A DNA stretch of 34,443 nt from assembly GCA_031279975.1 (NCBI GenBank), contig JAITHL010000210.1, forward strand, positions 1 to 34,443, in the 5' to 3' direction. The notes beneath the pieces are model-generated. The model was not told the DNA's origin, ran no database searches, and worked only from the letters and a program-made list of their open reading frames with translations. This document shows, piece after piece, positions 16,254-29,710 of the stretch; position 1 is the stretch's first letter; every line of letters begins with the position of its first letter. This stretch comes from Treponema sp. (GTDB lineage: Bacteria; Spirochaetota; Spirochaetia; Treponematales; Breznakiellaceae). A program made the translations under genes and the position numbers.

Positions 16254-17183
<930 letters not shown>

Positions 17184-17200
17184 CGCGAATTTGGAGGAAC

Positions 17201-17557
17201 ATGATGGTAATGATACGAGCAATTATAAGACCGGAAAAGGCGGAGGAAGTCATGGCCGCCCTCATGGCTGATGGCTTCCCGGCGGTAACCCGGATGAACG
17301 TGTCGGGCCGGGGCAAACAGCGGGGAATAAAGATCGGCGAAGTAAGCTACGATGAAATCCCCAAGGAACTGCTCTTGATGGTTGTTAAAAACACGGACAA
17401 GGATTTTGTGGTCAAGAGGATACTGGAAGCGGCCAGGACAGGAAAGGGTTCCTATGGGGATGGAAAAATTTTTGTCTCCCCGGTGGAAGAGGTGTATACC
17501 GTCAGCTCGGGGATAAAAGAAGAACCCGGTCCAGGTTCGGGAGGCGAAGCCCTATGA
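17201..17557 (+). CDS. nifI1: PII-like nitrogen regulator NifI1
   Basis: 118 residues. PII fold marks: MIRAIIRPEKAEEVMAAL at the start, T-loop region around GRGKQRGIKIGE, and the GDGKIFVSPVEEVYTV block near 87-101. NifI1 with NifI2 binds dinitrogenase and switches it off in response to ammonium via 2-oxoglutarate and ATP, as known in methanogens. GGAGG is just upstream; the start may be the ATG at 17201, 17204 or 17210. The Gly/Pro-rich tail (EEPGPGSGGEAL) extends beyond the fold. Overlaps nifI2 by four bases. Confidence 0.95.
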   Translation: MMVMIRAIIRPEKAEEVMAALMADGFPAVTRMNVSGRGKQRGIKIGEVSYDEIPKELLLMVVKNTDKDFVVKRILEAARTGKGSYGDGKIFVSPVEEVYTVSSGIKEEPGPGSGGEAL

Positions 17558-17934
17558 AGGAAGTAATGGCCGTCATTAGGATGAACATGATGAACAAAAC
17601 TAAACGGGCCCTGGCCGATGCGGGGATCAGTTCCCTTTACGCTAAAGAGTGTCTGGGCCGGGGCAAGGGTACTATAGAAATACCCCGCTATGTGGAGGGC
17701 GCGGCCGAGCGTTACCAGGATATGATCCAGGAATTGGGAGTGGCGGGGCGGCTTATACCAAAGCGGATGATCAACGTCGTTGTGCCGGACAAGCTGGTAA
17801 AGACCGTGGTCAATACGGTGATCAGCGTAAATAAAACCGGAAGAAGCGGGGACGGGAAAATTTTCGTCATGCCCGTTTCCGAATCCTGGCGGGTCCGTAC
17901 CGGCGAGTCCGGCGACGATGTGCTGGATTTGTGA
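17554..17934 (+). CDS. nifI2: PII-like nitrogen regulator NifI2
   Basis: 126 residues. Opens EVMAVIRMNMMNKTKRALADAG, carries the NifI2-type long T-loop with GRGKGTIEIPRYVEGAAERYQD and RLIPKRMINVVVPD, and ends GDGKIFVMPVSESWRVRTGESG. Partner of NifI1 in direct post-translational control of nitrogenase. ATG overlaps the nifI1 stop. Placement between nifH and nifD is diagnostic for cluster II/III nif operons of anaerobes. Confidence 0.95.
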   Translation: MKEVMAVIRMNMMNKTKRALADAGISSLYAKECLGRGKGTIEIPRYVEGAAERYQDMIQELGVAGRLIPKRMINVVVPDKLVKTVVNTVISVNKTGRSGDGKIFVMPVSESWRVRTGESGDDVLDL

Positions 17935-17955
17935 GGCCATTTTTAAGGAGAAATA

Positions 17956-19593
17956 ATGTCACCAGTTTTTGAAGCGCCCGGCGCCGCTGAATTCAAGGCG
18001 GAACTGCTGGAAAGGTATCCGCCCAAGGTCGCTAAAAAAAGGGCGAAACAAATTATTGTCAACAAGGTTGAAGATTCGGGGGAAGTCCCGGAGATACTGG
18101 CAAACGCCAGAACCGTTCCGGGGATCATCACCATGCGGGGCTGCGCCTACGCGGGATGCAAGGGGGTGGTACTGGGGCCCACCAGGGACATACTCCAGAT
18201 TACCCACGGTCCCATAGGCTGCGGTTTCTACAGTTGGCTTACCCGGCGCAACCAGACCAGGCCCTACGGCGCTTCCGATCCGAATTACATGACCTACGCC
18301 ATGTCCACGGATCTCCAGGAAGAGGAGATCATCTTTGGGGGAGAAAAGAAACTGCGGGCCGCCATTGACGAGGCGGTGGCCCTGTTCCACCCCAGGGCCA
18401 TAGGCATCTTTGCCACCTGCCCGGTGGGGCTTATCGGCGACGATGTTCACGCCGTGGCCAGGGCCATGGAAGAAAAGTACCCGGATATCAACATATTCGG
18501 TTTTTCCTGCGAGGGCTACAAGGGCGTAAGCCAGTCGGCGGGGCACCACGTGGCGAACAACAAGGTCTTTACCGATGTGGTGGGCCAGATTGACAAGCCG
18601 AAGGACGGGGAGTTCCGCTTCAATATCCTGGGGGAATACAACATCGGCGGCGACGCCTTTGAAATCGAGCGGCTGGTCAAGGACTGCGGCCTTACCCTTC
18701 ACTCAACTTTTTCGGGGAATTCGACCTACGATGAATTTGCCAGCGCCCAGACCGCGGATCTCAACGTGGTCATGTGCCACCGGTCCATCAACTATCTGGC
18801 GGAAATGATGGAGAAAAAATACGGCATACCCTGGTTCAAGGTGAACTTTGTGGGCGCCGCCGCCACCTCAAAGTCCCTGCTCAAAATCGCGGGGTATTTT
18901 GAGGACAAGGGTTTGCTTAAAAAGACCGAAGAAGTCATCGCCAGGGAAACGGAAGAAGTAGAAAAGGCGCGGCAGGATGTGCGTTCCCGCTGCGAGGGCA
19001 AGACGGCGGTCCTCTATGTAGGCGGCTCCAGGGCCCACCATTACCAGGAACTCCTCAAGGAAATCGGCGTCAACATACTTTCCGCGGGCTACGAGTTTGC
19101 CCACCGGGACGACTACGAAGGCCGCAGGGTCATACCGGGCATCGTGGTGGACGCCGATTCCCGGAACATCGAGGAACTTAAGGTTGAGCCTGACCCGGCC
19201 AACTACCGGCCCCGTATAAGCGGAGAAGAAAAGGCCAAAAGGGAAGCGGCGGGTTTTGCCTTTAACGACTACGACGGCATGATGAGCGATATGCCCAGCA
19301 GAACCCTCATCATCGACGATTGCAGCCACTACGAGCTTGAAGAACTGCTGGACCGGTATCATCCCGATCTGGTCTGCGCGGGGATCAAGGAAAAGTACGT
19401 GGTCCAGAAGCGGGGAATCCCTATGAAGCAGCTCCACAGCTACGATTACATGGGGCCCTTCGCGGGTTACCGGGGGGCGGTTAATTTTTACCGGGAAATC
19501 GACCGGCTCCTCAACTGCAATGTTTTTAAATTCGTCAAAGCCCCCTGGGACGAAAGCCCCGAGCTTTCCGCCTCCTACGGATACAACGGGTAA
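17956..19593 (+). CDS. nifD: Nitrogenase MoFe protein alpha chain
   Basis: Carries the FeMo-cofactor and half of the P-cluster. 545 residues. P-cluster ligands Cys63, Cys89 and Cys155 (RGCAYAGCKG, HGPIGCGF, FATCPVGLIGDD). FeMo-co ligands Cys274 (MCHRSINY) and His494 (LHSYDYMGP). Gln193 and His197 (VSQSAGHH) match the catalytic Gln191/His195 of Azotobacter. An insertion of roughly 50 residues around 385-440 (HRDDYEGRRVIPGIVVDADS onward) is the Clostridium-type feature. AAGGAG precedes the ATG. The ligand set and cofactor-pocket text argue for Mo rather than V or Fe-only nitrogenase. Confidence 0.97.
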   Translation: MSPVFEAPGAAEFKAELLERYPPKVAKKRAKQIIVNKVEDSGEVPEILANARTVPGIITMRGCAYAGCKGVVLGPTRDILQITHGPIGCGFYSWLTRRNQTRPYGASDPNYMTYAMSTDLQEEEIIFGGEKKLRAAIDEAVALFHPRAIGIFATCPVGLIGDDVHAVARAMEEKYPDINIFGFSCEGYKGVSQSAGHHVANNKVFTDVVGQIDKPKDGEFRFNILGEYNIGGDAFEIERLVKDCGLTLHSTFSGNSTYDEFASAQTADLNVVMCHRSINYLAEMMEKKYGIPWFKVNFVGAAATSKSLLKIAGYFEDKGLLKKTEEVIARETEEVEKARQDVRSRCEGKTAVLYVGGSRAHHYQELLKEIGVNILSAGYEFAHRDDYEGRRVIPGIVVDADSRNIEELKVEPDPANYRPRISGEEKAKREAAGFAFNDYDGMMSDMPSRTLIIDDCSHYELEELLDRYHPDLVCAGIKEKYVVQKRGIPMKQLHSYDYMGPFAGYRGAVNFYREIDRLLNCNVFKFVKAPWDESPELSASYGYNG

Positions 19594-19617
19594 GCGGCGG
19601 TTCCGCCCCCTAAAAAA

Positions 19618-19838
19618 CCGCATTTTCGTAGCCTTTAGGCTGAGAAAATGCAAGGTCTGGCCGCAAAGCAACCGGCTTTGCGGCCAGACGCTCTATAGCG
19701 GGCCTGTCCGGAAACCCGGTTGGTTTCCGAACAGTCTTTGCGGTTTCTCGCCCTTATGGGCGCGGATTAAAGTCCGGCAAAACCGCGGTTCTCAGCGGTT
19801 GCTGCCGAAAAACTGAAGTTTGGCGGCAGCCTCTCTAT
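19618..19838. repeat. Double three-armed palindromic element between nifD and nifK, copy C
   Basis: Contains three strong hairpins: GTCTGGCCGCAAAG (19655-19668) paired with 19676-19689 around loop CAACCGG; CTGTCCGGAAACC (19704-19716) with 19722-19734 around CGGTT; and GCTGCCG (19801-19807) with CGGCAGC (19824-19830) around a CTGAAG loop. Core stems GCGGTTT/AAAACCGC lie between. It appears to be a forward partial copy followed by a reverse full copy. It ends just before the nifK ribosome binding site and widens the usual short nifDK gap to 256 bp. Confidence 0.85.
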
Positions 19839-19849
19839 AAGGAGTGATC

Positions 19850-21226
19850 ATGTTACTAAAACATACGCCCAAGGAGCTTGCAGAGCGGAGCGCTCTTACC
19901 ATAAATCCCGCCAAGACCTGCCAGCCCGTGGGGGCCATGTACGCGGCCCTGGGGATTCACAAGTGCCTGCCCCACAGCCACGGGTCCCAGGGCTGCTGCG
20001 CCTATCACCGGAGCGCCCTTACCCGCCATTACACCGAGCCGGTCATGGCCAGCACTTCTTCTTTTACCGAAGGCTCTTCGGTATTCGGGGGCCAGTCCAA
20101 TTTGCTGGAATCGATCAGCAACATCTTTGCCCTCTATGATCCTGACATTATCGCGGTGAACACTACCTGCCTTTCGGAAGTCATAGGGGATGACCTCACC
20201 CAGATCATCAACCGCGCCATAACGGACAACAAGATTCCGCCGGGCAAAAAGGTGCTGTACGCCTCGACTCCCAGCTTCAAGGGTTCCCACGTTACCGGTT
20301 ACGCCAACATGTTGAGCGCCATGGTACAGAACTTTGCCGCGAACAGCGGGAAGAAAAACAACGCGGTTACGATACTGCCTTCGTTTATCGAACCGAGCGA
20401 CATGACGGAAATAAAACACATCGCCGAAGAACTGGGGCTTGAGTACATCATGTACCCCGACACTTCGGGGGTGGTGAACGCCCCCATGGACGGCACGTTC
20501 CGCATGTACCCCAAGGGAGGAACCGCCAAGGAAAAAATCATCGCCAGCGGGGACAGCCGCCTTGCCCTTGCCCTGGGCCGGACCGGTACATTTCAGGCGG
20601 CCCAGCTTCTGGACAGCAAGTGTAAGGTTAAGCCCCTGATCATGGATCTTCCTATCGGCATTAGCGCCACCGACGCCTTCGTGGACGCCCTGCGGAAAGC
20701 CGCCGGGGTTACCGTGCCCGAGAGCCTCAGAACCGAGCGGGGGCAGCTGGTGGACGTACTCTGTGACAAGGCCCAGTACCTCTACGGCAAAAAGGTTTCC
20801 CTCATGGGCGACCCCGACACGGTTCTGGGGCTTGCGCGGTTCTGCGCCGACGCGGGCATGCGGGCGCTGCACGTTGTTACCGGCACCCCCGCGGGGGCCA
20901 AGTGGGAACGGGGAATCAGGGAAATTGCCGGGGGCGGCGTTACGGTAAAATCCGGGGCCCAGGCGGATCTTTTTTACCTGCACCAACTGCTGCAGAACGA
21001 AAAGCCGGATCTCCTTTTCGGCAACACCTACTGCAAATACATTGCCAGGGACATGGACATTCCCCTGATACGCTGCGCCTTTCCCATATACGACCGGATA
21101 GGCCATTCCTATGTGCCCCTTACCGGATACCGGGGCGGCCTCCACCTCCTCATTACAATTCTGGACAAGATACTGGACCGCCAGGACAGGGACGCGGCGG
21201 AAGAAGAGTTTGAGCTTGTTATGTAA
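19850..21226 (+). CDS. nifK: Nitrogenase MoFe protein beta chain
   Basis: Completes the P-cluster with NifD. 458 residues. P-cluster ligands Cys24 (AKTCQPVGAMYAALG), Cys49 (HGSQGCCAYHR) and Cys107 (VNTTCLSEVIGDD), with Ser142 (STPSFKGSH) at the redox-dependent ligand position. The N-terminal extension of Azotobacter NifK is absent, giving the short clostridial form. AAGGAG (19839-19844) lies five bases before the ATG at 19850; a GTG at 19844 overlaps that site and is less likely. Separated from nifD and nifE by palindromic elements, so its expression may be set post-transcriptionally. Confidence 0.97.
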   Translation: MLLKHTPKELAERSALTINPAKTCQPVGAMYAALGIHKCLPHSHGSQGCCAYHRSALTRHYTEPVMASTSSFTEGSSVFGGQSNLLESISNIFALYDPDIIAVNTTCLSEVIGDDLTQIINRAITDNKIPPGKKVLYASTPSFKGSHVTGYANMLSAMVQNFAANSGKKNNAVTILPSFIEPSDMTEIKHIAEELGLEYIMYPDTSGVVNAPMDGTFRMYPKGGTAKEKIIASGDSRLALALGRTGTFQAAQLLDSKCKVKPLIMDLPIGISATDAFVDALRKAAGVTVPESLRTERGQLVDVLCDKAQYLYGKKVSLMGDPDTVLGLARFCADAGMRALHVVTGTPAGAKWERGIREIAGGGVTVKSGAQADLFYLHQLLQNEKPDLLFGNTYCKYIARDMDIPLIRCAFPIYDRIGHSYVPLTGYRGGLHLLITILDKILDRQDRDAAEEEFELVM

Positions 21227-21340
21227 GCCAGCCGCAAAAACCGGCTGTTTTTGCGCCGGCCCCCGCGGTTTTTCGCATAAGGGCTGCGAAACATGCTTTT
21301 TTTAGCAATAGCGGCCGCAAAATCGCTGTTTTGCGGCCGC
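21227..21340. repeat. Three-armed palindromic element between nifK and nifE, copy B
   Basis: Begins directly at the nifK stop. Arm GCCAGCCGCAAAAA...TTTTTGCGCCGGC (21227-21260), a core TTTTTCGCATAAGGGCTGCG, then a perfect 12-bp arm GCGGCCGCAAAA (21311-21322) with TTTTGCGGCCGC (21329-21340), loop TCGCTG. Reverse-complement orientation of copy A at 16042-16153. Confidence 0.85.
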
Positions 21341-21371
21341 CTCATGTGATAGTTTCCCCAAGGAGGCGGAA

Positions 21372-22739
21372 GTGGTAGAAATTTTAGACGCTCGAAAAAG
21401 ACAGGTTCTTGAAAAGGGGAAGGATTCATTCGCCCTGGAATGTGAGAAGGCCAGCGCCGCCGGTTCCGTAAGCCAGCGGGCCTGCGTTTTCTGCGGCTCC
21501 AGGGTCGTGCTTTACCCCATAGCCGACGCCCTTCACCTCATCCACGGGCCCATAGGCTGCGCCGCCTATACCTGGGAACTCCGGGGTTCCCTGTCATTGG
21601 GGCCTCAGCTTCACCGGATGAGCTTTTCAACAGACCTGAAAGAACGGGACGTTATCTACGGCGGGGAGAAGAAACTCTACGCCGCCCTCACCGAACTCAT
21701 AGACGAATACAAGCCCCGGGCGGCCTTTGTGTACTGTACCTGCATCATCGGCCTTATAGGGGACGATGTGGAGGCGGTCTGCGCCAGGGTTGAAAGGGAG
21801 CGGGGGATTCAGGTTGTCCCGGTTCATTCCGAGGGCTTCAAGGGAACCAAGAAGGACGGCTACAGGGCGGCCTGCGAGGCGGTATTCAAACTCACCGGCA
21901 AGGACGGGGATTCCCCGGTTTTCCCCTTCGGCATCAACATCCTGGGGGAATTCAACCTGGCCGGGGAAACCTGGATCATCAAGGATTACTACCGGCGCAT
22001 GGGGGTCGAAGTTGTCTCCTGCCTTACCGGTGACGGCAGGGTGGAGGAAATAGGCAGGGCCCACCGGGCGAAACTCAACGTGGTCCAGTGCGCGGGTTCC
22101 ATGACCTTCCTGGCCAAAATGATGCGGGAACGCTACGGCATTCCTTTTATCCGGGTTTCCTATTTCGGCATCGAGGATATGACTAAGGCCCTGTACGATG
22201 TGGCGGAATTTTTTGCTTCCCCGGAGATAAGCGAAAACACCCGAAACCTGGTGAGCGAAGAAGTTACGGCCCTGCTGCCCGGTCTTGAGGAATACCGGAA
22301 AGACCTGGAAGGCAAGAAGGCCGCCATCTATGTGGGCGGCTCCTTCAAGGCGTTCTCCCTGGTTAAGGCCCTGCGGCGCCTGGGGATGGAAACCGTGGTG
22401 GCGGGAAGCCAGACCGGATCGGCTGAGGATTACGAGTACCTCAAGGAAATCACCAGCGAGGGAACGGTCATCCTGGACGACGCCAACCCCCTGGAGCTTT
22501 CGGGTTTCATCCTGGAAAAGGGCGCGGATATTTTGATCGGCGGCGTAAAGGAGCGGCCCATTGCCTATAAGATGGGGATAGGTTTCTGCGATCACAACCA
22601 CGAGCGCAAGGAAGCCCTGGCCGGTTACGCGGGGATGCGTAACTTTGCGAAGGAAGTACACGCGTCGGTAACAAGCCCGGTGTGGAAATACGCCCCGGCC
22701 CGGATCAGGGCGGCGGGAGGAACGCGGCCATGTCCATAG
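21372..22739 (+). CDS. nifE: FeMo-cofactor scaffold protein NifE
   Basis: NifD-like half of the NifEN scaffold on which the NifB-derived cluster receives Mo and homocitrate. 455 residues. Cluster cysteines Cys38 and Cys41 (RACVFCGSR), Cys63 (HGPIGCAAYTW) and Cys122/Cys124 (YCTCIIGLIGDD) are visible. The NifD FeMo-co His region is replaced (GFCDHNHERKEALAGYAG), as expected for NifE. Start GTG at 21372 has AAGGAGG six bases upstream. The last 15 residues (ARIRAAGGTRPCP) look unconserved. Overlaps nifN by ten bases, so the two scaffold subunits are coupled. Confidence 0.95.
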   Translation: MVEILDARKRQVLEKGKDSFALECEKASAAGSVSQRACVFCGSRVVLYPIADALHLIHGPIGCAAYTWELRGSLSLGPQLHRMSFSTDLKERDVIYGGEKKLYAALTELIDEYKPRAAFVYCTCIIGLIGDDVEAVCARVERERGIQVVPVHSEGFKGTKKDGYRAACEAVFKLTGKDGDSPVFPFGINILGEFNLAGETWIIKDYYRRMGVEVVSCLTGDGRVEEIGRAHRAKLNVVQCAGSMTFLAKMMRERYGIPFIRVSYFGIEDMTKALYDVAEFFASPEISENTRNLVSEEVTALLPGLEEYRKDLEGKKAAIYVGGSFKAFSLVKALRRLGMETVVAGSQTGSAEDYEYLKEITSEGTVILDDANPLELSGFILEKGADILIGGVKERPIAYKMGIGFCDHNHERKEALAGYAGMRNFAKEVHASVTSPVWKYAPARIRAAGGTRPCP

Positions 22740-24154
22740 CGGAAACCGGGAACCCTGGTTCCATAAACTTTACGTCCACCAGGAACGCCTGCAAGCTCTG
22801 CGCCCCCCTGGGGGCATCCCTGGCCCTGCGGGGAATCGAGGGGTGTATCCCGCTGATCCACGGTTCTCAGGGCTGCTCAACCTACATACGGCGTTACGCG
22901 ATCAGTCACTTCCGGGAGCCCCTGGACATCGGCTCCTCGAATTTTACCGAGTCCGCGGCGATCTTCGGGGGCAGGGAAAATCTCTTTACCGCCCTGGACA
23001 ACCTGACCCGTTCCTATAAGCCCCAGGCCATAGGGATCACCTCCACCTGCCTCGCGGAGACCATAGGCGAAGACCTGCCCATGTACCTTAAACAGTACGA
23101 GGCGGAACGTTCCCGGGGGGGACGGAACAACGCGTGTCTTGAGCCGGTCATATTTTACGCTTCCACCCCAAGCTACCGGGGAACCCACATGGACGGTTTC
23201 CACGAGGCGGTGTACGCCGCCCTGTCCGCCCTGGCGGGGGAAGGCGCCGGGCCCGAAAAGGGCGCTCCCCCAAGGATCAACCTGATTTCAGGTCTTGTGT
23301 CCGCCGAAGACATTCGGGAACTCCACCGCATACTCAGATCCTTTACCGGTTCCCCGGACAGCCGGGGCCCTTGCCCCTATACCCTGTTCCCGGACTACTC
23401 CGAAACCCTGGACGGCCCTTCCTGGGAAACCTACCAGAAGCTGCCCCAAGGGGGAACCAGGCTCGATGACATCCGCGGGATGGGAAGGGCCGCCGGTACC
23501 CTTTACCTGGGCCGGCCTTCCGGCGCCGATGCCGGACGCTGGCTTTTGGATTGCCGGGGGGTTCCCCTTGTCAATGCGGAACTTCCCATAGGCATAGAAA
23601 ACTGCGATTCCTTTTTCGCGTCCCTGTCAGAACTTTGGGGCAGGGAAATCCCCGAAACATGGGCAAAAGAGCGGGGCCGCCTGGTAGACGCCTATATTGA
23701 CGGGCATAAGTACGTCAATGGGAAGCGGGCGGTCATTTACGGCGAGGAAGATTTTGCCGCCGCCCTTGCCTCTTTTCTCGATGAAATCGGCGTTGTTCCT
23801 GTTATCGCGGCCACCGGGGCGGAGAATTCAGGCTTCCGCGCCCGGCTGGGTCAGGCGCCGCGGAACACCAAAGAAAAAATGGAAATCATGGAGGATGCGG
23901 ATTTTGCGGGCATGCTGGAAAAGGCAAAATTCTTAAAGCCCGATTTTGTCATGGGCCACAGCAAGGGCCTCTACCTTGCCCGGAACTTAGGCGTTCCCCT
24001 GGTCCGCTGCGGCTTCCCCATTCACGACCGGATAGGGGGGCAGCGCATACTGCACCTGGGATACCGGGGAACCCTGAATCTTTTTGACCTGATCTGTAAC
24101 GCGCTTATGGAAGAAACCCAGGCGCGCCATGAAAACGGCTATACGTACCTCTAG
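22730..24154 (+). CDS. nifN: FeMo-cofactor scaffold protein NifN
   Basis: NifK-like partner of NifE. 474 residues. Cysteines Cys21 and Cys24 (RNACKLCAPLGAS), Cys49 (HGSQGCSTYIRRY) and Cys107 (ITSTCLAETIGED) correspond to the NifK cluster positions. The ATG at 22730 has GGGAGG ten bases upstream and overlaps the nifE end; starts further upstream would read nifE sequence out of frame. Not fused to NifB, unlike some clostridial NifN-B proteins: nifB is a separate gene that may overlap it. Confidence 0.95.
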   Translation: MSIAETGNPGSINFTSTRNACKLCAPLGASLALRGIEGCIPLIHGSQGCSTYIRRYAISHFREPLDIGSSNFTESAAIFGGRENLFTALDNLTRSYKPQAIGITSTCLAETIGEDLPMYLKQYEAERSRGGRNNACLEPVIFYASTPSYRGTHMDGFHEAVYAALSALAGEGAGPEKGAPPRINLISGLVSAEDIRELHRILRSFTGSPDSRGPCPYTLFPDYSETLDGPSWETYQKLPQGGTRLDDIRGMGRAAGTLYLGRPSGADAGRWLLDCRGVPLVNAELPIGIENCDSFFASLSELWGREIPETWAKERGRLVDAYIDGHKYVNGKRAVIYGEEDFAAALASFLDEIGVVPVIAATGAENSGFRARLGQAPRNTKEKMEIMEDADFAGMLEKAKFLKPDFVMGHSKGLYLARNLGVPLVRCGFPIHDRIGGQRILHLGYRGTLNLFDLICNALMEETQARHENGYTYL

Positions 24155-24206
24155 GGAAACTCCAGGCATCTGGAGGGTTGACCGGAGTATCGAGGGGAAC
24201 CGGCCT

Positions 24207-25469
24207 ATGGATTTTGACAAGCATCCCTGTTTTAACCCCGGGGTGAGGCACAGCACGGGCCGCATACACCTGCCGGTGGCGGAACGGTGCAATGTCCAGT
24301 GTAACTTCTGCAACCGCAAATACGACTGCGTCAACGAAAGCAGGCCCGGCGTTACCAGCGCGGTCCTTTCGCCCTTGCGGGCCCTGGATTATCTTGGCGC
24401 GGCGCTGCAAAAAACCGGCAATATTTCCGTTGTGGGCATTGCCGGCCCCGGCGATGCCTTTGCCGACGGGGAACTAACCTTTTCTACTATGAAAATGGTT
24501 CACGAGCGGTATCCGGACAAGCTCCTCTGCGTTGCCACCAACGGCCTGGGGCTTGGCCCTTACGCCGAAAGGCTGGCGGCCCTTGACGTTTCCCACGTAA
24601 CCATAACCTGCAACGCGGTGGATCCCGAAATCGGCGGGAAGCTCTACGCATGGGTTCGTTACGGCCCCCGGGTCTACCGGGGCGTTGAGGGGGCGGCCCT
24701 GCTGCTGGCGCGGCAGATTGAGGGCGTCAAGGCCCTCAAAGCCCTAGGGATTACGGTGAAGATCAACACGGTGATCGTTCCCGGCGTCAACGATGCCCAT
24801 GCGGTACAGGTAGCCAAAACCATGGCCGGCCTGGGCGCGGATATTCAAAACTGCATCCCCCTGAAGCCGGTGGAAGGAACGGCCTTTGAAAACCTGGACT
24901 CCCCCGGCGCCGGCGCCATGGCGGGCCTGCGGCTGGAGGCGGGCAAATACCTCAGGCAGATGTCCCACTGCGGCCGCTGCCGGGCCGACGCGGCGGGACT
25001 CATCGGCGATCAGAACCAGGCGGAAACCAGGGAACTTTTGGAAGCATCGGGGATGCCGAAGCCTAGCGCGGCAAGGCCCTATGTGGCGGCGGCTTCCATG
25101 GAGGGCCTCTTTGTGAACCGCCATCTTGGGGAGGCTTCGTCATTCCAGATATTTGCCCTGGAGAACGGAAAGCCGGTTTTGAGGGAACAGCGTCCGGCCC
25201 CGGCTGCCGGGACAGGGAGCGCCAGATGGGAAGCCCTGGCGGACGCCCTGGACGACTGCTTTGCGATCCTGTTCAGTAATTGCGGGGAAGGCCCCAAGCG
25301 CATCCTTGAAAAGCGGGGATTCGCGCTTATAGCGGGGGAGGGCCTCATAAGCGACATTGCGGACTATCTGCTCAAGGGGAAAAAGGTTCCCAGCCTGTAC
25401 CGCGTCAAGGCCGGCCGCTGCGGCGCGGGAGAAGGCTGTGCCGGCAACGGCGGCGGCTGCGGAGCCTAA
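24207..25469 (+). CDS. nifB: NifB radical-SAM NifB-co synthase with C-terminal NifX-like domain
   Basis: Builds the 8Fe precursor of FeMo-co with carbide insertion. From the ATG at 24207 it has 420 residues; this start has GAGGGG nine bases upstream. An in-frame ATG at 24129, inside the nifN end, gives 446 residues and cannot be excluded. The radical-SAM motif C-x3-C-x2-C is Cys28/Cys32/Cys35 (ERCNVQCNFCNRKYDC), preceded by HPCF. Further cysteines CGRCRADAAG lie near residue 274. From about 295 (AAASMEGLFVNRHLGEASSF) a NifX/NafY-like cofactor-binding domain follows. The extreme C-terminus is Gly/Cys-rich (CGAGEGCAGNGGGCGA), with three Cys that might hold a metal cluster. Confidence 0.95.
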   Translation: MDFDKHPCFNPGVRHSTGRIHLPVAERCNVQCNFCNRKYDCVNESRPGVTSAVLSPLRALDYLGAALQKTGNISVVGIAGPGDAFADGELTFSTMKMVHERYPDKLLCVATNGLGLGPYAERLAALDVSHVTITCNAVDPEIGGKLYAWVRYGPRVYRGVEGAALLLARQIEGVKALKALGITVKINTVIVPGVNDAHAVQVAKTMAGLGADIQNCIPLKPVEGTAFENLDSPGAGAMAGLRLEAGKYLRQMSHCGRCRADAAGLIGDQNQAETRELLEASGMPKPSAARPYVAAASMEGLFVNRHLGEASSFQIFALENGKPVLREQRPAPAAGTGSARWEALADALDDCFAILFSNCGEGPKRILEKRGFALIAGEGLISDIADYLLKGKKVPSLYRVKAGRCGAGEGCAGNGGGCGA

Positions 25470-25533
25470 TGAAGCCCCCTGGCCGCGAAACATAATCGAA
25501 ACATAATATCGAAACATAATAAGGAGTAAAACG

Positions 25534-25842
25534 ATGACTAAACCAAAACACCATGTACTGTTGTGCGCTTCCTTCAGGATGAACGGTATGCCCCAGGGGG
25601 TATGCGCCAAGGGAGGGGCGGGACAACTCGCGCAGCGCCTCCAGGAAGATCTGGCTGACCGGGGGCTTGCCGATGTGGCCGTGTCCTGTACAAGCTGCCT
25701 CGGAATCTGCGACCGGGGCCCCGCCCTGGTGGTGTACCCCGAGAACTGGTGGTTCGGCCATATCGACAGCGAAGAAGCCGTTGACGCGGTGATCGATTCC
25801 ATCGAGGCCGGAAGCCCCGCCCCGGAATACCTTGTTACCTAG
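25534..25842 (+). CDS. Thioredoxin-like [2Fe-2S] ferredoxin
   Basis: 102 residues. The cluster cysteines are Cys11 and Cys24 near the start (LLCASFRMNG, GVCAKGG) and the CTSCLGIC motif near 52-59, the pattern of Clostridium pasteurianum-type thioredoxin-fold [2Fe-2S] ferredoxins and Shethna-type proteins often found in nif clusters. AATAAGGAG precedes the ATG. Last gene of the nif operon; probably an electron carrier or cluster-assembly partner for nitrogenase. Confidence 0.9.
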   Translation: MTKPKHHVLLCASFRMNGMPQGVCAKGGAGQLAQRLQEDLADRGLADVAVSCTSCLGICDRGPALVVYPENWWFGHIDSEEAVDAVIDSIEAGSPAPEYLVT

Positions 25843-25845
25843 AAA

Positions 25846-26300
25846 GGCGCTGATTGCGTACCGGAGGTCCGGCGTCAAGCAGGGCCTCCGGTCAGAAATC
25901 AGCGTTGCCCTAGGAGTTTGCGGCGCTTCGCGCAATTCAACAGAAAAAACGCGCCAAAAGAGCGTTTTTTCCGTGATTTATGCTAAAACGAACCACGGAA
26001 GGCGCTGATGTAACGCGGATGATGTTTCTAATCATCCGCGTCATCCTTTTCATCAGCGCAATCAGCGGTTCCATGGAAACCGTTTTTTTACCGCAGATGG
26101 CGCGGATGTACGCAGATTAACGCTGATGCTGTTATCTTCATCAGCGTCATCATTTTAATCCGCGCAATCAGCGGTTCCATGGAAACTGTTCTTTATCGCA
26201 GATGACACGGATGTACACATATTTCCGGTAAACCCCGCTAATCCGCGCCGAACCAGATTTTCGTGATCCGCGTTAATCAGTGTAATCCGTGGACATTGTT
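25846..26300. repeat. Intergenic repeat block between fdx and nifV
   Basis: Contains a GGAGGTCCGGCG/CCTCCGG hairpin near 25868-25895, a bidirectional terminator-like hairpin (25943-25971), and two tandem units of about 106 bp in which GCGCAATCAGCGGTTCCATGG starts at 26056 and 26162. Its right end (26240-26310) carries the GATCCGCG/AATCAGTG type seen at 5087-5505 and runs into the 3' end of nifV. No gene is supported between 25843 and 26272. Confidence 0.85.
25943..25971. terminator. Bidirectional terminator between convergent fdx and nifV
   Basis: Perfect 10-bp stem GAAAAAACGC (25943-25952) with GCGTTTTTTC (25962-25971), loop GCCAAAAGA. A-tract on one side and T-tract on the other allow function on both strands, fitting its place between convergent transcription units. 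Confidence 0.5.
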
Positions 26301-27886
26301 AAAAAACCTGATTTAATCAGCTTTTTTCCAGACCGGGCCATCTCGGCGTTAACCGCATCGAGGCCGCATAACAGGAGAAGTTCCGCCACAGACGGGCCGA
26401 TCCGTTCCAGCGCGTAACAGCTCCCCGAAGGCGGCCTAATCTCCGTGTAAAGCCTGATCCTGCCGCTGTAACCGTTGACGGCAAGGGGGGAAAATTCCGG
26501 CTTCCATCCGCAAAGACGCCCCAGGGCTTCCGAAACCGCAAGGGCCGCGCTGTTTCCATTCCCGGAAATTTCCCCTGCCCTTTCTGCCGCGCCGTACACC
26601 CCAAGGACGGCGCTGACCTGGAATAGCTCCTCCAGGACCGCGCCGTTCCCGGTGAAGGTTTCGGTAAAGGAAAGGCGGATAAACGGGCCGGGAAATTCCG
26701 CCGGAAGTTTCCCCATGTCCGAAAGGATACAGAGGAATTCGGTGATTCCCGTAAGGGTTTCGCTGTCTTTTATTTTCTCCGCCGCCAGGGCAACGGTTTT
26801 TTCATCCAGCGCAAGGCCGCAGTAACGTTCCGCGAACAGGGCTGTTCCAGCCTTTCCCGAATGGCGGGAGAGGACTATTCGTTCTGGAACCGTTGCCCAC
26901 CGTTCCACGCCTGGAAGGGAGTAGGTTTCGGTATTCCTGGAAAGCCCTTGCTGGTGAATTCCAGAACCGTGGGAGCGGGTATTCCAGCCTGAGAGGGGCT
27001 TCATGGGCGAAAAGGCGCCGCCCGCCATCGCCGCCGCCATATTGATAAGCTCCGGGAATTTTTCGGGCTTAAGATTGGCATACAAGCCCAGTTCCCGGGA
27101 TCGCAGTTCGATGTTTGCCCCTACTTCCTCAAGGGCCGCATTGCCCGCCCGTTCCCCTATGCCGGACACTGAAAGCTCCGCCTGGCCGCAGCCCGCTGCC
27201 AGGGCCGCCAGGGTGTTTGCGCAGGCCAGGCCCATATCGTTATGGCAGTGGATGCTTAAAACCGCCCCCTCCCCTTCCAGGGCAAAAGCGGGTATGCGGG
27301 AGCAGAGGAACGCCGTCAGTTCCCTGACCTCCCCGGGGGATGAAGCGCCCAGGGTGTCGGCAATATTGACCCTCCGGGCCCCGGCGTCAAGAGCGGCCTG
27401 GCAGTATTCCAGGAGAAAATCCCGGTCCGCTCTGAAAGCGTCTTCCGCGCCTAACTCCATCTCCGTTACAAGTCCCGCGGCGAACGAAACCGCCCGCCGG
27501 GCAAGGACGATAAGTTCTTTTTCGGTTTTGCCGAGTTTCGCCTCGATATGTATCCTGCTTACCGGGAGGGAAATGTGGAGTATCCCCGGAATACCCCCTG
27601 AAAAGACCTTCGCCGATTTGTCAATGTCTCGGGGGATGCCCCGGCACATCACCGCGGCCAGGGGCCGGGGCAAAGGGTTTCCCGGTACCGCGAAGTTTTG
27701 CAATTCCCGCGCCGCGGTTTTACAGAACTCAAAATCGATCCCGCTTGAAAGGGGGAAGCCGGTCTCTATCACGTCCGCCCCGGCTTCCGCCAGGGCCATG
27801 GCTAGGGCAAGTTTTTCCTTCCCGCCAAAGCAGAATGCCTGATCCCCGTCCCGGAGGGTCGTGTCAAAAATTGTTACGCGCCGCAT
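26273..27886 (-). CDS. nifV: Homocitrate synthase / isopropylmalate synthase family, probable NifV
   Basis: Likely condenses acetyl-CoA with 2-oxoglutarate to homocitrate, the organic ligand of FeMo-co. 537 residues against roughly 380 for typical NifV. Catalytic-domain marks: DTTLRDGDQ (8-16), SLPVSRIHIEAKLGKTEKEL (about 106-125), LGAEDAFRADRDFL (NifV-like), metal His213 and His215 (HCHNDMGLA) and SGIGERAGN (241-249). Other blocks (ETGFPLSSGIDFE) are more LeuA-like. Residues about 393-515 form an extra domain with GNGNSAALAVSEAL, resembling the LeuA regulatory domain. The last 17 or so residues come from an intergenic repeat. ATG 27886 overlaps the HEPN-like gene by 23 bases. A LeuA or citramalate synthase role is the alternative. 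Confidence 0.75.
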   Translation of the reverse strand: MRRVTIFDTTLRDGDQAFCFGGKEKLALAMALAEAGADVIETGFPLSSGIDFEFCKTAARELQNFAVPGNPLPRPLAAVMCRGIPRDIDKSAKVFSGGIPGILHISLPVSRIHIEAKLGKTEKELIVLARRAVSFAAGLVTEMELGAEDAFRADRDFLLEYCQAALDAGARRVNIADTLGASSPGEVRELTAFLCSRIPAFALEGEGAVLSIHCHNDMGLACANTLAALAAGCGQAELSVSGIGERAGNAALEEVGANIELRSRELGLYANLKPEKFPELINMAAAMAGGAFSPMKPLSGWNTRSHGSGIHQQGLSRNTETYSLPGVERWATVPERIVLSRHSGKAGTALFAERYCGLALDEKTVALAAEKIKDSETLTGITEFLCILSDMGKLPAEFPGPFIRLSFTETFTGNGAVLEELFQVSAVLGVYGAAERAGEISGNGNSAALAVSEALGRLCGWKPEFSPLAVNGYSGRIRLYTEIRPPSGSCYALERIGPSVAELLLLCGLDAVNAEMARSGKKLIKSGFLTMSTDYTD

Positions 27887-28280
27887 GGGGAACCGGTTTC
27901 TTCTCCGCCAGCAGCGCCACCCGGTTGATGGCCTCGACAAAGCGGCCCACATCCCCCGGAGAAGGTTTCGTGATCCTGAAATCATCGAAGGAACAGATAT
28001 TCTGGAGGGAATCAAAGCGGCGCAACAAGGTTTCCAGATCTTCCGGCAAGGGCGCGAAGGTTTTTATCTCTTCAATAAAATCCTCCATGGTATGGCTGCG
28101 GGGCAGGATGCCCCGGCGGATAAAGAGGGCCATAAAGTATTTCTCGATACCCATGGCCGCGATGTTCTGTATGATTTCGGGAGTAAAAACTTCCGGCCGT
28201 TTCAGGCCCCCCAGTACCGCCCGGTGAAAACCCCGGCCATCCTCAAGAAATTGTTCCCACCCTTCCTTTTGCTTGTCCAT
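27864..28280 (-). CDS. HEPN-like domain protein coupled to nifV
   Basis: 138 residues, all-helical in appearance. The central segment MGIEKYFMALFIRRGILPRSHTMEDFIEEI (43-72) resembles HEPN domains (helix with conserved Glu/Lys, then P-x-x-H), and R56-G-I-L-P-R-S-H63 fits the R-x4-6-H motif of HEPN ribonucleases; the His context also resembles the nucleotide-binding, non-nuclease HEPN type. Start ATG at 28280 is set by the promoter seven bases upstream. The stop lies inside nifV, so both are one transcript. No partner nucleotidyltransferase is adjacent, which argues against a standard toxin-antitoxin pair. A role in the nif system is only inferred from position. Confidence 0.7.
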   Translation of the reverse strand: MDKQKEGWEQFLEDGRGFHRAVLGGLKRPEVFTPEIIQNIAAMGIEKYFMALFIRRGILPRSHTMEDFIEEIKTFAPLPEDLETLLRRFDSLQNICSFDDFRITKPSPGDVGRFVEAINRVALLAEKKPVPHAARNNF

Positions 28281-28287
28281 GGAAACA

Positions 28288-28316
28288 AGTGTATGAAGAG
28301 GGCTTTGTCCTGTCAA
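28288..28316 (-). promoter_or_regulatory. Sigma-70-type promoter of the HEPN-nifV unit
   Basis: On the minus strand TTGACA (28316-28311), 17-bp spacer, TACACT (28293-28288), then seven bases to the ATG at 28280. The transcript should start at or next to the ATG and be leaderless. No sigma-54 site is seen, so nifV may not follow the nifH promoter. Confidence 0.6.
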
Positions 28317-28401
28317 TCGCGCGCCATGCGTCATAATTTTTCTAATCCAAGAAGGGCGAAAAGGCCATAACAAAAATCCCGCTTTTTGTCCAGGACAATA
28401 G

Positions 28402-28517
28402 ACGTGTTCCAAAACCCGGTTGGTTTCGGAACACGTCCTGCGGTTTCTCTGGCTAAAGCCTTACGAAACCGCGTTTTTAAGCGGAAGCTGTTCTGAAACT
28501 GAAGTTTCAGAACAGCT
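28402..28517. repeat. Three-armed palindromic element, copy E
   Basis: The clearest member. Arm 1 is ACGTGTTCC (28402-28410) with GGAACACGT (28428-28436) around CCCGGTTGG. The core is GCGGTTTC (28440-28447) with GAAACCGC (28465-28472) enclosing GGC-TAAA-GCC. Arm 2 is AGCTGTTCTGAAAC (28486-28499) with its exact complement (28504-28517), loop TGAA. Lies between the HEPN-nifV unit and aroK, in a stretch (28281-28672) with no gene. Confidence 0.9.
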
Positions 28518-28625
28518 CTAATGTGTTGGCCGCGATAAATCCCCGGCAGCTTAAGTGATTAGCGGGCGCATGGGCCGTACCCCCCTGGGGTACGGCCCTT
28601 GCGCCCGCAACATGGTAACAAGCTA

Positions 28626-28711
28626 CCCCCTCAACGGGGGCTCTGCCCCCGTAACGCCCCCGCCGGGGGGCCTCAGGCCCCCCGGTCCCCCCTTAAGCTG
28701 TTGACAGTGGG
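28626..28711. repeat. GC-rich palindromic repeat (REP-like), copy 3
   Basis: GGGGGC-TCT-GCCCCC and CCGGGGGGCC-TCA-GGCCCCCCGG hairpins, followed by the block GTCCCCCCTTAAGCTGTTGA. Near-exact reverse complement of 12647-12712 and extends into the aroK coding 3' end; the same block forms the ftsH 3' end. Confidence 0.88.
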
Positions 28712-29637: not shown

Positions 29638-29710
29638 CGCAGGGTAGAGCAGTTGGCAGCTCGTCGGGCTCATAACCCGGAGGTCGTAGGTTCGAGTCCT
29701 ACCCCTGCTA
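29638..29710 (+). tRNA. Initiator tRNA-fMet (anticodon CAT)
   Basis: A 73-base cloverleaf: acceptor CGCAGGG (29638-29644) with CCCTGCT (29703-29709), D-stem GAGC/GCTC, anticodon loop CTCATAA with CAT at 29671-29673, T-arm GTAGG-TTCGAGT-CCTAC, discriminator A at 29710. Initiator identity is shown by the unpaired position 1-72 (C opposite T) and the three consecutive G-C pairs (GGG/CCC) in the anticodon stem. CCA is not encoded. Confidence 0.95.

Follow-up and report, generated by a model that had tools for sequence, protein, structure and literature searches.

A small gene encoding a protein of predicted HEPN fold lies directly upstream of nifV, and overlaps it, in the nitrogen fixation (nif) region of a Treponema contig. 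Homologues of this gene recur beside nif genes in two phyla, and the encoded family lacks the RNase motif associated with canonical HEPN proteins. The preferred explanation, to which we give about an even chance on the strength of sequence comparison and structural modelling, is that nitrogen fixation has taken over a HEPN fold for non-canonical use, in an accessory or regulatory nif protein that would act by binding a ligand or a protein partner. The window, meaning the whole stretch of DNA that was analysed, comprises 34,443 nucleotides.

The HEPN-fold gene occupies positions 27864–28280 on the minus strand and encodes 138 residues plus a stop codon. Because 32 homologues could be aligned and dN/dS ranges from 0.11 to 0.23 among pairs with unsaturated dS, a sign of purifying selection, this open reading frame is, on comparative evidence, a real gene. 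It is followed on the same strand by a nifV-like gene (26273–27886) with HMGL-like and HCS_D2 domains, 537 residues long when counted from the ATG at 27886. The stop codon of the HEPN gene ends at 27864, giving an overlap of 23 bases with the nifV start (27864–27886, minus strand). A first-pass annotation made from the DNA letters had described both this overlap and a helical product of 138 residues containing Arg56 and His63; the translation and the helices of the AlphaFold2 models described below agree with that description. The remainder of the cluster, nifH-nifI1-nifI2-nifD-nifK-nifE-nifN-nifB plus a ferredoxin-like gene, runs convergently toward the HEPN-nifV pair on the plus strand (16320–25842), with gene names assigned partly from reading of the sequence and from blastp between loci. 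The ferredoxin-like gene (25534–25842, 102 residues) adjoins nifB in most relatives, with 47–84% identity and a weak Pfam match, and its product is possibly another undescribed nif accessory protein.

The arrangement at the HEPN-nifV junction is shared well beyond the window. An overlap of exactly 23 bases recurs in 8 of the 14 pairs measured, which include Treponema relatives and two planctomycete loci (L132 and L135), and four further pairs overlap by 4 to 13 bases, start codons having been picked mechanically throughout this survey. No Shine-Dalgarno sequence is seen before the nifV ATG in the window, and its absence, together with the 23-base overlap, fits translational coupling of the two genes. 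The nifV product is assigned as a homocitrate synthase by context. It scores 291 bits against the NCBIfam model for 2-isopropylmalate synthase and 218 bits against the nifV model TIGR02660, below the cut-off in both cases, and its 537 residues make it longer than the 365-position nifV model.

A promoter-like sequence, TTGACA-N17-TACACT, is present upstream of the HEPN gene (28288–28316, minus strand), with 7 nt between the end of the −10 hexamer and the ATG. Its match at that position was equalled by 1 of 2000 shuffles. A second, weaker promoter-like site falls just within the HEPN gene (28279–28250). Because the HEPN and nifV genes overlap, the promoter at 28316–28288 would also serve nifV. 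The distance from the −10 hexamer to the start codon is 5 to 7 nt in seven spirochaete loci (the window, L014, L015, L024, L026, L029, and L169), and a Shine-Dalgarno sequence is absent before the HEPN start in the same seven; judged by position only, the HEPN transcript is therefore probably leaderless. No sigma-54 promoter was found upstream of the HEPN gene with the pattern used, and TGT-N10-ACA matches in L017 and L019 were set aside, there being no adjoining sigma-54 site. The interval that separates the HEPN promoter from a shikimate kinase gene contains four near-perfect hairpins (28401–28685), one of which may be a terminator, and a tRNA gene (Rfam RF00005) is found at 29638–29710. The first-pass annotation had raised the possibility that the HEPN protein cleaves nif hairpins. 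These hairpins lie upstream of the HEPN promoter and hence are not on the HEPN-nifV mRNA, and that proposal loses its footing.

Assignment of the protein to the HEPN fold, also proposed at first reading, is upheld by structure prediction and a fold search. Two AlphaFold2 models, built from 16 and 32 homologues, reached pLDDT values of 84.5 and 85.7. Helices are predicted at residues 7–25, 34–55, 80–92, and 108–126, with an additional helix (65–72) in an insert that separates helices 2 and 3, an element present in the HEPN superfamily as well. The top 18 matches in a search of PDB structures are all HEPN proteins, with TMt up to 0.75 and a probability of 1.00 for the first four, and both models match TT1696, TM0613, ST0689, AF0298, sacsin, and HepT first. 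None of the structural matches has an E value below 0.001. A PDB match to the designed bundle 6egc (E 0.0003) was rejected as helical-bundle similarity. At the sequence level, the Pfam HEPN model PF05168 gives the window protein 14.2 bits against a curated cut-off of 22 and is the only model to recur across the family (10 of 32 homologues, all below cut-off, best E 0.026); NCBIfam and PADLOC searches of the family returned no match of note. We take prediction to establish the HEPN fold of the 138-residue protein, and the family is likely to share ancestry with HEPN proteins.

The pattern of conservation in the family differs from that of a canonical RNase site. Glu46 (codon 28143–28145, minus strand), in helix 2, Pro60, and Cys96 (codon 27993–27995, minus strand) are kept in all 32 aligned homologues, and His63 (codon 28092–28094, minus strand), in the helix 2-3 insert, in 31 of them. 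Cys96 sits in the loop after helix 3 (residues 93–107 in the model), where the canonical Rx4-6H motif would be expected. No Arg or His is conserved among the 32 homologues across residues 80–107 of the window's protein, a segment in which Cys96 is invariant. The canonical RNase site thus appears to be absent, and Glu46, His63, and Cys96 are predicted to lie on elements lining the active-site cleft of the HEPN fold. Published HEPN anatomy suggests that the three would meet in one cleft. The first-pass annotation had singled out R56-x6-H63, but neither position nor conservation supports it as the HEPN RNase motif: Arg56 (codon 28113–28115, minus strand) marks the end of helix 2, His63 is in the insert before helix 3, and Arg56 is retained in just 22 of the 32 homologues.

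An unlikely but credible alternative is that the protein is an RNase with a different HEPN site, in which His63 of the insert and Glu46 would work with a basic residue elsewhere, Arg28 or Arg56, to cut nif or nifV mRNA in a form of post-transcriptional control. Such a site would draw on the near-invariance of His63, the invariance of Glu46, and the presence of Arg or Lys at position 28 in 28 of the 32 homologues. It also has a parallel in the AF0298-like HEPN-T proteins, represented among the top structural matches by AF0298 itself (2hsb), whose insert carries a conserved His that has been proposed to be used, and which retain a basic residue in the motif region (PMC3710099). That last feature is where the parallel fails, as the family studied here does not conserve a basic residue where the motif Arg would be, with positions 87, 88, and 102 varying among the 32 homologues. 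The incomplete conservation of Arg56 and the position of the intergenic hairpins upstream of the promoter also weigh against cleavage of this kind.

The distribution of the gene supports recruitment to nitrogen fixation, as the first-pass annotation had suggested, and its linkage to nif is strong. Homologous HEPN loci lie beside nif genes in 26 of 35 cases, drawn from the window's family, other Spirochaetota, and Planctomycetaceae of termite guts, and the typical arrangement is [nifA]-HEPN-nifV-mod. Co-occurrence with nifD is significant in two families, with P of about 1e-11. Within the window's family, 200 genomes include 12 with the HEPN gene, 17 with a true nifD, and 10 with both (Fisher P 5e-11); the two holders that lack nifD (G108 and G109) are incomplete assemblies in which the HEPN gene directly precedes nifV. 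In the planctomycete family, the HEPN gene is present in 13 of 119 genomes, 12 of them with nifD (P 2e-11). In eight planctomycete loci, one of them a contig-end fragment, the gene comes after a nifA-like activator (for the four of these activators that were scanned, the best NCBIfam match is TIGR01817, below its cut-off), and it precedes nifV in five, with molybdate transport genes then following in several. Six of the 10 loci from other Spirochaetota fall within nif clusters, in varied arrangements with mod, nifB, a ferredoxin-like gene, nifV, and nifA, including the orders nif-mod-HEPN-nifV and nifB-ferredoxin-HEPN-nifV. The gene is also found in two complete genomes, apparently of cultured strains. 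Three candidate matches were discarded, one in Halobacteriovoraceae (L022) as a short open reading frame without the residues of the family, and two as too weak (G000:C82, E 0.015; G302, E 0.007).

The association is not universal in either direction. Many nif clusters have no HEPN gene, even within the window's family (G018, G045, G121, G149, G174, and G183), and the gene is therefore not essential to nitrogenase. Nine HEPN loci are not beside nif genes. Four of these belong to genomes that bear nifD (G142, G200, G202, and G203); the other five are in G299, where a nifD search gave no match, and in G383, G396, G468, and G600, and the family may therefore have another or a broader role. Among the loci not beside nif, L170:8722-9863, from one of the last four genomes, places the HEPN gene next to a gene with a Nitro_FeMo-Co (NifX/NafY-like) domain, with an ammonium transporter nearby, and three planctomycete loci (L017:7097-8411, L019:5746-7012, and L020:2448-3656) place it after ribulose-phosphate epimerase, the nif genes being on other contigs. 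The planctomycete nifD sequences (L077-L081 and L109-L120) are 75–80% identical to spirochaete nifD, which suggests that the nif cluster has passed from one phylum to another. An open reading frame at L177:221-487, with repeated VSIHAPARGAT, looks like a translated CRISPR array.

The same loci bear on a narrower proposal, that the HEPN protein is a dedicated partner of homocitrate synthase, binding NifV to stabilize it or set its activity, with the gene overlap fixing the ratio of the two. We consider this rather improbable. Such a partnership is favoured by the overlap, which is 23 bases long in 8 of the 14 loci measured and is found in two phyla, and by the position of the HEPN gene directly upstream of nifV in 10 of 10 close orthologues (at least 50% identity) from the window's family. 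Pairwise distances of the HEPN protein also track those of NifV most closely (r 0.85, compared with 0.75 for NifE and 0.70 for NifB), a correlation that shared species history can also yield. The pairing is broken, however, in G200, G202, and G203, where the HEPN gene follows rpe, away from nifV; in G119, which has no room for nifV downstream of the HEPN gene; and in L173, where two mod genes intervene between the HEPN gene and nifV. That a toxin or defence gene came to rest in the nif locus by chance is very improbable, for although toxins are common among HEPN proteins (PMC3710099; PMC7641770), Pfam finds no nucleotidyltransferase among the neighbouring window proteins, in keeping with the first-pass annotation, PADLOC defence models give no match, phages, plasmids, and viral contigs have none at the sensitivity used, the canonical motif is absent, and nif linkage recurs in two phyla.

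Comparison with known systems sets the family apart from its closest structural relatives. It resembles the HEPN-T family PF05168 (TT1696, 1ufb; TM0613, 1o3u; ST0689, 1wol; AF0298, 2hsb; human sacsin HEPN, 3o10) in fold, length, and small stand-alone form, and shares the conserved insert His with AF0298-like members, but differs in its sub-cut-off Pfam score, in having no basic residue conserved across the motif region, in its invariant Cys96 there, and in its nif linkage. The MNT-HEPN toxin-antitoxin systems (HepT/MntA, type VII) have the HEPN fold in common with it, whereas the gene studied here has no adjacent nucleotidyltransferase, its neighbours in relatives being nifV, nifA, mod, and rpe, its product has no Rx4-6H motif, and the TM-scores are lower (about 0.35–0.5). 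MtlR of the mannitol operon belongs to the HEPN superfamily, often has a domain without the RNase motif, and has a proposed regulatory role (PMC3710099). It likewise places such a domain in a metabolic operon, although the operon and subfamily differ and a sequence match was not found. NifW, NifQ, and NifX/NafY are also small proteins encoded near nif genes; Pfam and NCBIfam searches gave no match of the HEPN family to any of them.

Under the preferred reading, that of an accessory or regulatory nif protein, the HEPN protein would be co-translated with NifV and would use its HEPN cleft to bind either a protein partner or a ligand, such as a nucleotide, a metal, or a thiol-reactive signal. It would thereby regulate or assist the step at which molybdenum and homocitrate, the components that set FeMo-cofactor apart, are supplied, or alternatively would modulate NifA, which is encoded next to the HEPN gene in planctomycetes. 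Molybdenum-homocitrate supply and NifA control are pointed to by the neighbours of the HEPN gene. The protein may serve as a nucleotide or ligand sensor. A bolder version, which we regard as doubtful, holds that the RNase cleft has been rebuilt around Glu, His, and Cys as a metal-, homocitrate-, or redox-sensing site, and that the protein would represent a new, dedicated component for molybdenum-homocitrate delivery or control in the nitrogenase systems of spirochaetes and planctomycetes.

No paper joining HEPN with nifV was found in the open-access literature searched, where a HEPN domain and nitrogenase appear together only in a survey of viral NAD and ADP-ribose systems. The family has the HEPN fold but not the RNase motif, and its nif context was not found described for HEPN proteins in that literature. 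If the preferred reading is true, this would be one of the rare HEPN domains recruited to core metabolism rather than to defence. What is known of accessory nif genes comes mostly from proteobacteria. Retained next to nifV, mod, and nifA in two phyla, this small gene is a candidate for a component still missing from the picture of nitrogenase supply or control among the nitrogen fixers of termite guts.
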